From: Parafilimonas terrae
Lineage (GTDB): Bacteria > Bacteroidota > Bacteroidia > Chitinophagales > Chitinophagaceae
Assembly (NCBI RefSeq): GCF_900115755.1
Contig: NZ_FOXQ01000001.1
Span: 868,001-932,000, forward strand
Length of the DNA stretch: 64,000 nucleotides
Reading direction: 5' to 3'
Under the pieces are notes generated by a model. That model saw nothing but the letters and a program-made list of their open reading frames with translations, ran no database searches and was not told where the DNA came from. The translations under genes and the position numbers were made by a program. Shown piece after piece: positions 19,536-22,970 of this stretch. How positions within the stretch are numbered: position 1 is the stretch's first letter; each line of letters begins with the position of its first letter.

Positions 19536-22500
19536 TTACATATTGCGCCGGTATTGACCGCCCACTTCATATAATGCATGTGTGATTTGGCCAAGTGAAC
19601 AATATTTAACCGTTTCCATCAATTCTTCAAAAAGATTTCCATTGTTAACAGCAACAGTTTTCAACTTGTTCAACTTATCAGCTGATACATTTTCATTACG
19701 TTTATGAAATGCGTTGAGGTTTACAATCTGTTGCTCTTTTTCTTCCGTTGTTGAACGAATGACTTCTGAGGGTGTTATTGTTGGCGAACCTGTTTTATTT
19801 AAAAAAGTATTTACACCAATCAATGGTAATTCGCCTGTATGTTTTTGATGTTCGTAATGCAAGCTTTCTTCCTGAATTTTATTGCGCTGGTACATTCTTT
19901 CCATTGCGCCCAGCACACCGCCACGGTCTGTTAAACGGTCAAACTCTGCCAGCACAGCTTCTTCCACCAAATCAGTTAATTCTTCAATAGCAAATGAGCC
20001 TTGTATAAAGTTCTCTGTTTTTGCAGAACCTAATTCACGGTTAATGATTAATTGAATGGCCATTGCACGGCGCACACTTTCTTCCGTTGGCGTTGTTATG
20101 GCTTCATCATAAGCATTTGTATGCAGCGAATTGCAGTTATCATAAATGGCATATAAAGCCTGCAGTGTTGTTCTTATATCATTGAAATCAATTTCCTGTG
20201 CATGCAAGGAGCGGCCGGATGTTTGAATATGATATTTTAATTTTTGAGAACGCTCATTGGCTTTGTATTTATACTTCATCGCCTTTGCCCATATACGTCT
20301 TGCCACACGGCCAATTACACTATATTCTGCATCCATACCATTACTGAAAAAGAAAGAAAGGTTTGGCGCAAAATCATCTATGTGCATCCCGCGGCTTAAA
20401 TAATATTCAACATAAGTAAAGCCATTTGCCAGCGTAAACGCTAATTGTGTTATTGGATTGGCGCCGGCTTCCGCAATATGATAACCGCTGATGCTTACAC
20501 TATAAAAATTTCTTACTTTATTATTGATAAAATATTCCTGCACATCGCCCATTAATTTCAATGCAAATTCTGTTGAAAAGATGCAGGTGTTTTGCGCCTG
20601 GTCTTCTTTTAAAATATCTGCCTGCACCGTTCCACGCACCTGAGCTAATGTTGATGCTTTGATTTGTTCATACACATCTTCCGGCAACACTTCATCACCA
20701 CTAAATCCTAATAATTTTAAACCCAAACCATTATTGCCATCAGGCAATCTTTCCGGCGATGATGGATTATAATAAGATGGTTTACCACTCGTCTTGTACT
20801 TCGATTCTACAAGTCCATCGACCATGGACCATTGACCATGGTCTGTTATCCATTTCTCGCATTGCTGATCAATGGCAGCGTTCATAAAAAATGCAAGAAT
20901 GATGGGCGCCGGCCCGTTAATCGTCATGCTAACGGAGGTTTTTGCATCGCACAAATCAAAACCGCTGTATAATTTTTTTGCATCATCAACAGTTGCTATG
21001 CTAACGCCGCTGTTACCAATTTTTCCATAAATATCAGGACGGTTATCAGGATCTTCACCATACAATGTAACGCTGTCAAATGCAGTGCTCAAACGCTTTG
21101 CCGGCTGCTCTAATGAAACATAATGAAAACGTTTATTGGTACGTTCCGGCCCGCCTTCACCGGCAAACATTCTTGTCGGGTCTTCGCCTTGCCGTTTTAA
21201 TTCAAAAACACCTGCCGTAAATGGAAATTCGCCGGGCACATTTTCCTGTAACTGCCATCTTAAAATATCGCCCCAGTCTTTATATTTCGGCAAAACAATT
21301 TTAGGAATGCGTGTGCCGCTTAATGAAGTTGATGTTAATGGCTGTTTAATTGTTTTATCGCGAACAGTATATTCAAAAAAATCTGCGCTGTATTTTTTTT
21401 GCAATGATGGCCAAGCATCAATTAATTTTTTGCATTCAGCATTCAATTGTTGTTCGTAATGTTTTTTTAAACCTAACAGGTCTTGATGACCTGTTAGGTT
21501 TTTTTCTTCAAGCACACCATCAATCTTATACAATTTCGATGCGATGGCACATTGTTCATCAACCCAATTATCATACGCTTTATTGCTTTCAACAATCTCA
21601 GACAAATAACGAACACGTTTAGGTGGAATGATCAGTGATTTTGACGTTGTATCTTTTATATGATGTACTTCAATTTTACCAAAATCCACCTTCGTTTTTT
21701 CTTCAATCGTGAGCATTATTTTTTCAAACAATTCATTAATGCCCGCATCATTAAATTGAGATGCAATGGTTCCAACGACAGGTAAATCTTCATTCTTCGC
21801 TTCCCATAAATTGCGGTTACGTTTATATTGTTTGCGCACATCATTCAATGCATCCAACGCACCGGCTTTATCAAATTTGTTGATGCAAACAATGTCTGCA
21901 TAATCCAGCATATTTATTTTTTCAAGCTGGGATGCGGCACCATATTCGGGCGTCATTACATACATGCTTACATCACAATAATCTAAAATGGATGCATCGC
22001 TCTGACCAACGCCTGCACTTTCCAAAATGATAAAATCAAACTGAGCAGCTTTACAAATTTCCAATGCATGTTCAACCGCGCCACTTAATGCAATATTATC
22101 ATCACGGGTGGCAAGGCTGCGCATATATGCACGCGGATGTGAAATAGAGTTCATTCTTATTCTATCACCCAATAATGCGCCACCTGTTTTTTTGCGGGAC
22201 GGATCAACAGAAATTACGGCAATTGTTTTATCTGTGTAAGCATTCAAATAACGGCGAACAATTTCATCTGTAACGGAAGATTTGCCTGCGCCGCCGGTGC
22301 CGGTAATGCCGAGAACCGGGATAACTGTTGGCCGTTCACCGTTTACCGAATTCGGTTGTCGGTTGCCGGTTATCGGTTGACCATTTTCAATGTTTGTTAT
22401 CTTTCTCGCAATCGTTCTTATATCTTTTACTTCACTAAGCGTCATCGGTTTTTTATATGCACCGTTGCCGTTTAATACAAAATCACATTGCTGAATCACA

Positions 22501-22901
22501 TCTTCAATCATGCCTTCCAAGCCCATCTTTCTACCATCATCAGGCGAATAAATTCTTGTGATGCCATAGTTGTGTAATTCATTTATTTCCTGTGGAAGAA
22601 TGGTGCCGCCGCCTCCGCCAAAAATCTTTATATGACCGCAACCATTTTCATCAAGCAAATCTTTCATGTATTTGAAAAACTCTATGTGGCCGCCTTGATA
22701 TGAAGTAATTGCAATGCCCTGTACATCTTCTTCAATAGCACATTCAACAATTTCTTTTACACTGCGGTTGTGGCCAAGATGAATAATCTCTGCGCCTTTA
22801 CTCTGTAAAATACGGCGCATAATATTGATTGCGGCATCGTGACCATCAAACAAAGAAGCTGCGGTAACTATGCGGATTTTATGTTGCGGCATGTAATTCA
22901 T
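19536..22901 (-). CDS. icmF: fused adenosylcobalamin-dependent acyl-CoA mutase (isobutyryl-CoA mutase type, IcmF)
   Basis: About 1,120 aa carrying three modules in one chain. They are an N-terminal B12-binding domain ([14 protein letters not shown], with the DxHxxG-like cobalt-ligand His), a MeaB-like G-protein chaperone (P-loop [13 protein letters not shown]) and the mutase TIM barrel. This order is diagnostic of IcmF. In the barrel, the position of MCM's substrate Tyr is Phe (RMFAGEGG, codon 21165-21167), and that of MCM's Arg is Gln (AQNTCIF, codon 20592-20594). This favours isobutyryl-/n-butyryl-CoA over methylmalonyl-CoA. Three repeat-derived inserts interrupt the gene without breaking the frame. 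ATG at 22901 chosen; ATG at 22892 is equally possible, and the frame upstream opens only with TTG. Slightly longer than typical IcmF. Confidence 0.92.
20813..20843. repeat. heptanucleotide tract inside icmF (mutase domain)
   Basis: Four consecutive 7-mers of the form GWCCATN (GTCCATC, GACCATG, GACCATT, GACCATG) plus three further bases, at exact period 7. It is translated in icmF as roughly [12 protein letters not shown], a stretch that looks foreign to the family. It also contains overlapping CCATGG palindromes. Confidence 0.75.
21469..21501. repeat. 14-bp perfect inverted repeat inside icmF
   Basis: Arms AAACCTAACAGGTC and GACCTGTTAGGTTT around a 5-nt loop, 33 bp in all, exactly 11 codons. 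It is translated as part of [12 protein letters not shown] in the linker before the mutase barrel. T-runs flank it on both sides. It resembles intergenic palindromes of Bacteroidota genomes rather than coding sequence. Confidence 0.85.
22334..22380. repeat. heptanucleotide tract inside icmF (B12/G-domain linker)
   Basis: Two 7-mers GTTYACC are followed by a 12-bp palindrome (ACCGAATTCGGT, 22345-22356) and four exact-period CGGTTRN 7-mers from 22353 to 22380. Translated as roughly [16 protein letters not shown] between the B12-binding and G-protein modules. Confidence 0.75.
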
Positions 22902-22970
22902 TAAATAAAAAATTGCAAACAAAATTAACTGTTTGCAATTTAAATGAACGGCTGTTAGTTTATTGCAGCT

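Follow-up and report, generated by a model that had tools for sequence, protein, structure and literature searches.

The icmF gene of Parafilimonas terrae, which encodes a fused isobutyryl-CoA mutase/GTPase, occupies positions 19536-22892 on the minus strand of the window (the whole 64-kb stretch of DNA that was analysed) as one uninterrupted reading frame whose stop codon is at 19536. The start candidates are ATG at 22892 or 22901 and TTG at 22922, and the 1118 amino acids of the product are counted from the ATG at 22892. The protein matches the NCBIfam model NF045497 with 1783.1 bits (cut-off 1500), and the Pfam limits place a B12-binding domain at residues 7-109, a MeaB domain at 188-394 and the best stretch of the MM_CoA_mutase domain at 747-1111. 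Three repeat features lie within this frame, namely a heptanucleotide array at 22334-22380 (tract 1), a palindrome at 21469-21501 and a period-7 coding sequence at 20813-20843 (tract 3), which an initial annotation had interpreted as three in-frame inserts. All three are genuine features of the sequence, yet they differ in kind, and the first alone is a net insertion relative to the congeners. These comparisons are based on an alignment of 30 IcmF proteins, that of P. terrae included, on the DNA of the loci, and on the structure of Cupriavidus IcmF (4xc6). Such an alignment had been suggested as the check on all three insertions; it bears out the greater length at tract 1 vis-à-vis the congeners, but not an insertion at either of the other two sites. 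The genus was represented by eight genomes (G000-G007, G000 being P. terrae itself, with L002-L005 denoting the IcmF proteins of four congeners) and the wider sample by 59 genomes including G000. At E <= 0.001 the IcmF query had hits in 58 of these, a count that includes the own genome and matches to other mutases.

The palindrome (21469-21501, no strand assigned) covers residues 464-475 and falls, by the Pfam limits, between the GTPase and mutase domains, in the inter-domain linker to which it had been attributed (hereafter linker 2). Its description as a 14-bp palindrome of 33 bp was accurate, and the palindrome is exact: the arms (21469-21482 and 21488-21501) are 14 nt each and 100% complementary, with a 5-nt spacer, and as RNA it folds with -22.2 kcal/mol (z -7.1), a value reached by none of 200 shuffles. 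The supposition that it adds residues did not hold, as the site has the same length in P. terrae as in L003 and L004, is two residues longer than in L002 and two shorter than in L005, and aligns with Cupriavidus IcmF to within two residues. About 13 residues have been exchanged at this site and none added; the linker is variable in length, shows no net gain and lends no support to a net insertion. The same residues were not found as such in distant taxa, which had been named as the observation that would speak against insertion, but L008, from another genus, is partly similar, with EKALTGSADL..RRHY and no palindrome; L013 likewise has similar residues, ELLAIKKKYE, at the site. Thus, the insertion reading is weakened by the equal lengths and, for the palindrome, also by the residues of L008. 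The hairpin is absent from L002-L005, and G007 has one at the same codons (AAAACCTAACAGG...CCTGTTAGGTTTT) with inner bases that differ from those of the P. terrae copy. In the IcmF tree the P. terrae protein, that of G007 and the clade of G002-G004 form an unresolved fork, for which reason a single gain of the hairpin is indistinguishable from gain and loss; the fork and the same-site hairpin of G007 fit one old entry, without amounting to proof of it.

The idea that the palindrome is unique to IcmF was rejected: a search with its exact 10-base arms recovered one site in the P. terrae genome, but a relaxed pattern recovered 17, and an 86-base query found further copies across the genus. These hairpins share the form ACCT-xyz-AGGT...ACCT-z'y'x'-AGGT, in which the ends are fixed and the inner three bases vary from copy to copy, mostly with a match in the opposite arm. 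The co-varying arm types are AAC/GTT, ATA/TAT, GTG/CAC, GTC/GAC and TGA/TCA. The 29-bp core of the icmF palindrome, ACCTAACAGGT-N7-ACCTGTTAGGT (21471-21499, strand unassigned; G000:C32:889471-889499), is of the AAC/GTT type and agrees with the family at all fixed positions and in spacing. The pattern ACCTNNNAGGT-N0-12-ACCTNNNAGGT located 55 places in six of the eight genus genomes (17 in G000, 18 in G007, 10 in G006, 6 in G001, 3 in G003 and 1 in G002) and none in G004 and G005, and the reversed pattern, used as a control, matched nowhere in any of the eight. A tighter pattern matched at least 115 stretches in named genomes, with Bacteroidota, Beggiatoaceae, Chloroflexi, Methylococcales and others among the matches listed. 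Many copies have an A-rich left and a T-rich right flank. A gathering-threshold Rfam scan of the 64-kb window returned two tRNAs and nothing else.

We read 56 copies with their flanks, comprising 54 of the 55 genus copies (all except G000:C37:162001) and one each from G015 and G036. The majority are extragenic, and seven lie well inside long frames: the copy in IcmF, four copies in kinases and a pair in a single HsdS frame; the hairpin of L063, in a 144-codon frame with no Pfam hit, is ambiguous and was left out of this count. In the kinases (L042, L123, L125 and L122) the in-frame hairpins fall in loops of the HATPase domain, which Pfam (HATPase_c) confirms for L042, L122 and L125, and code for NLTGFENLLGL or NLSGL-x-DLTGL; the L122 gene is interrupted by a stop codon at another point, and L123 is cut off by a contig end. 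The three hairpin-bearing loops caught by our regular expression measure 50, 51 and 51 residues and four loops without a hairpin 49, 53, 54 and 55. As the lengths of both the kinase loop and the IcmF site fall within the range of their hairpin-free counterparts, replacement without gain in length is seen in two protein families. The HsdS gene of P. terrae (L130, G000:C36:267200-271600; PF01420, 43.3 bits) holds two in-frame hairpins. These two sit in two different reading frames, and the gene adjoins a frame resembling REP-associated tyrosine transposases (RAYTs).

This adjoining 190-codon frame on G000:C36, flanked by two hairpins of the GTG-arm type, has NHFH and YIHANP motifs. It scores 61.4 bits (E 8.6e-17) against the RAYT model NF047646, and a second such frame 54.3 bits, both under the curated cut-off of 80; the L130 frame, the one run through Pfam, matched no family there at 0.01. 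Homologues of it occur in 22 of the 59 genomes, and the 30 loci collected gave 24 distinct frames (four yielded none, and in two cases a pair of loci proved to be one gene), of which eight have like hairpins on both sides. Such two-sided flanks include the GTG and ATA types in P. terrae and the TGA type in G001 and G006. The search for RAYT-like homologues gave two matches in the P. terrae genome, neither with AAC/GTT-arm flanks, and the hairpin copy in IcmF would hence be a relic. The nearest candidate for a cognate transposase of the AAC type may be that of G007:C535, where hairpins of mixed GTA/AAC and GAC/GTC type stand on a single side. By eye, no GTAG/GGAG foot was seen at the hairpin base in 20 printed places and in the RAYT-flanking hairpins. 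As a separate observation, the RAYT-like frame of L247 itself holds REP-coded peptides after its NHFH motif.

Tract 1 (22334-22380, minus strand) is a degenerate array of CAACCGA-type units that codes for residues 171-187 in the linker between the B12-binding and GTPase domains (linker 1). The two heptanucleotide tracts had been described as exact in period, but Tandem Repeats Finder (TRF) gives only 80% matches at period 7 for tract 1 (22352-22379) and 85% for tract 3 (20815-20841), each with a score of 47 at period 14. The view of tract 1 as a repeat-like segment that adds length to the linker stands with respect to the congeners, the gain being six residues over L002 and seven over L003-L005, and among the three features it alone is a net insertion, and only in this comparison. 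Linker 1 of P. terrae is equal in length to those of L009, L026, L028 and L030, shorter than those of L007, L014, L015 and L018, and aligns within a few residues with Cupriavidus IcmF; linkers free of heptamers are equally long in several other genera. In a lag test (p <= 0.02) lag 7 was significant in 8, lag 14 in 9 and lag 21 in 11 of 39 linkers 1, and other lags in 0-3 of the 39, whereas lag 7 was significant in none of 48 genes in linker 2 and in none of 48 in a C-terminal control region. Of 50 IcmF loci 49 could be parsed (L094 has no long frame) and L076 was omitted as the same gene as L019, giving 48; for linker 1, seven were not caught by the regular expression and L019 and L077 were left out on account of length due to a DUF559 domain. 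The units differ from locus to locus (GTCAACC in L010, CCGAAAT in L007, CTCACGA in L018). A run of (TCAATGG)-type heptamers also occurs in IcmF of L029, from another family of the same order, in linker 2, where P. terrae has the palindrome.

Tract 3 (20813-20843, minus strand; residues 684-694) is an AATGGTC-like coding sequence for HGQWSMVDG. Its interpretation as an insertion finds no backing in the alignment, since its length is identical in L002-L020 except for one additional residue in L014; it adds no length relative to the congeners and most of the family and is not an insertion. L017 has ten extra residues slightly downstream, the more distant L021 is without about 11 residues at the tract, L022-L024 and L026-L030 are 1-8 residues shorter over the stretch shown, and in Cupriavidus IcmF about five residues face residues 689-740 of P. 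terrae, next to the tract. The DNA of L002 differs from that of P. terrae by two bases here, and the Q-W motif recurs in L011, L015, L018 and L025. When codons were shuffled with the protein fixed, 6 of 1000 shuffles for tract 3 and 5 of 1000 for tract 1 reached the TRF score; hence, the period of neither is explained by the protein sequence alone. As lag 7 was moreover significant in this loop in 8 of 46 IcmF genes, four of them within the genus, pure chance is not a secure explanation for tract 3.

Tracts 1 and 3 are the only arrays of TRF score 47 in the window, but an equally strong array arose at period 7/14 in 13, and at any period in 50, of 100 dinucleotide-shuffled windows; a single heptamer tract is accordingly weak evidence, and it is the recurrence in relatives that carries weight. 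A 400-kb sample of the P. terrae genome holds 13 loci of period 7/14/21, where 20 shuffles gave 1.05 on average and never more than 4, an approximately 12-fold excess. Arrays of other periods number 16, as against a shuffle mean of 5.2. Eight of the 13 period-7 loci lie in long frames of 313-976 codons. Recurrence of the units in other coding genes, which the initial annotation had proposed to look for, was found: besides the two hairpins in the HsdS gene, the unit CGGTTNN is in frame in two further long frames of the P. terrae genome. The idea of one mobile heptamer unit was rejected, as CCATNGA x3 occurs in IcmF only, CGGTTNN x3 at three places in the genome, and the units vary by locus. Further in-frame arrays are three in an RsmB-like gene (L316), two in a MetRS-like gene (L314) and, by TRF, one in a TilS-like gene (L301); these names, like MetH for L038, are presumptive and were read from the sequence without a family search. 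At the second and third arrays the RsmB-like protein exceeds every one of the 18 aligned relatives by about 27 residues, and at its array the TilS-like protein is only one residue above the commonest length (13 of 23 relatives), within a widely ranging stretch.

Based on these observations we consider it likely that the icmF palindrome is an intragenic REP that landed in a linker, that tract 1 is a local heptamer repeat and that tract 3 is IcmF sequence of unchanged length. RAYT-like HUH tyrosine transposases, encoded by genes that sister types of the hairpin flank, are the probable agents of the family's spread. One copy would have landed in the length-variable GTPase/mutase linker in an ancestor shared with a congener, entering in a stop-free frame (NLTG-xxx-LLGL) and replacing about 13 residues. 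It may have been kept in IcmF because the linker tolerates it, the replacement being presumably neutral for the enzyme. No net insertion is seen at the IcmF site, so that the act of entry escapes observation, and this lack of a change in length, together with the residue pattern shared by L008 and L013 without a palindrome, would also suit an origin in place, by template-switch (quasi-palindrome) correction of the L-T-G..D/E-L-L codons with no mobile element involved. However, such a process would not account for a core that fits a dispersed, genus-wide family in its fixed positions and spacing, nor for the same peptide turning up in kinases, and we regard it as unlikely. Selection for the hairpin itself, as a terminator or mRNA-stability element inside icmF, appears less probable still: the RNA hairpin is strong, many copies are bordered by A-rich sequence on the left and T-rich sequence on the right, and a run of T follows the hairpin on the strand opposite icmF, but in the sense of the icmF mRNA it is a run of A, not U, that follows, and the element is absent from L002-L005.

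The heptamers appear to call for a separate explanation. Tract 1 would be a local heptanucleotide simple-sequence repeat, perhaps born by slippage, with other units having arisen in other genera, and the codons of tract 3 may have come near (AATGGTC)3 by chance or by some substitution-like process. The alternative that all three features are in-frame inserts of one RPE-like kind, as initially proposed, draws on their common position in or beside variable regions; it is contradicted by the lack of added length at tract 3, by the replacement at the palindrome, and by the different distributions of hairpin and heptamers in the genomes, which also separate them as systems, and we hold it to be very improbable. 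With regard to the palindrome alone the likeness to RPEs is sound insofar as a dispersed palindromic element lies in frame in a housekeeping gene, but its nearest kin appears to be the REP/RAYT system rather than the RPEs. RPEs, too, are palindromes found in frame within functional genes, according to Di Nocera 2013 (PMC3733652); the present hairpins are in another taxon, are shorter and have RAYT-like genes adjoining.

As in REP/RAYT systems (REPtrons), the hairpins are short, dispersed and mostly extragenic palindromes which flank genes resembling those of HUH tyrosine transposases, with the type of repeat paired with the transposase-like gene. In-frame intragenic REPs have already been described (Di Nocera 2013, PMC3733652), as have REPs in frame within tnpA-REP genes of subclass 2.4 (Quentin 2018, PMC6006769), and in the present family, too, some copies are read in frame within ordinary genes, and REP-coded peptides occur inside one RAYT-like frame (L247). 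In contrast to canonical REPs, the present family has fixed ACCT...AGGT ends and three co-varying bases and shows no GTAG/GGAG foot by eye. The nearest description would be that of the 'atypical secondary structures' reported for the Bacteroidetes subclass 2.6 (PMC6006769), and icmF is not named as a REP host in the portions available of PMC3733652 or PMC6006769. Heptamers, for their part, are stated to outnumber every other class of long simple repeats (PMC4679880, citing Mrazek 2007), and the present arrays resemble these in the favoured seven-base unit, in the scatter of units and in slippage as the proposed source. They differ from the TAACTGA repeats of Beggiatoaceae, given in the same source as mainly intergenic, in that 8 of 13 loci in the 400-kb sample are in long frames. 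Thus, in-frame REPs and heptamer repeats are each already known, and what is unusual is the collection of in-frame passengers in one protein. In this bacterial group, DNA of probable selfish or slippage origin has been turned into protein time and again within core enzymes, at predictable linkers. Same-site pairs with and without the hairpin, in IcmF and in the kinases, offer a way into the question of how a REP can come to lie in coding DNA with no added length, and the pairing of co-varying arm bases with different RAYT-like genes makes transposase specificity testable.

A further passenger of the IcmF linkers is the DUF559 domain, which lies in linker 1 of the IcmF protein of G007 (L076; PF04480, 103.6 bits), at the same place in that of G018 (L077), and after IcmF residue 462, that is at the palindrome site, in G046 (L333), where the mutase part is a separate frame; the G018 assembly (72% complete), like that of G007 (680 contigs), is fragmented. 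Across the 59 genomes DUF559 was matched 57 times, in 25 genomes, and 25 of these matches lie in open frames of at least 400 codons, with two sharing one frame and two being weak, under 26 bits. The Pfam searches covered 10 of the approximately 24 long frames in one run and one in another, and all ten of the former hold a second, housekeeping domain: six are LeuRS, and chorismate synthase, the MetH activation domain, URO-D and IcmF account for one each. Eight of 11 inserts examined have hairpins on both sides, and the G007 IcmF insert, L327 and L330 have one clear hairpin side only. In LeuRS the inserts occupy two sites and have a terminal repeat of about the form CCTCACCCC-N3-CCCCTCTCC-NNN-GGAGAGGGG. 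The LeuRS of P. terrae (L322, G000:C21:135682) contains, besides its DUF559 insert, a solitary third hairpin in frame as well as a heptamer-like peptide.

We tentatively suggest, at rather less than even chances, that the IcmF linkers are landing sites for in-frame passengers, one of which would be a mobile DUF559 (restriction endonuclease-like) nuclease with hairpin-holding inverted terminal repeats that enters stop-free and remains translated as an additional domain within the host protein. The lone in-frame hairpin in the P. terrae LeuRS is possibly a non-autonomous form of this element. At the DNA level, the one 40-residue stretch compared, before the insert in G007 IcmF, resembles another genus (0.74) more than its own (0.60), and a foreign-looking flank is what homing with co-conversion would predict. 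We know of no description of a hairpin-bounded, in-frame DUF559 mobile element in the open-access literature, and, if borne out, the case could represent a mobile element of a new type, which persists as a translated domain. A GC-rich hairpin pattern, which was rejected as a general companion of DUF559 on account of its presence in only 3 of 59 genomes, is found in G018 IcmF (L077), where the same hairpin, coding for SPTGGDLEGA, is in frame in both linker 1 and linker 2.
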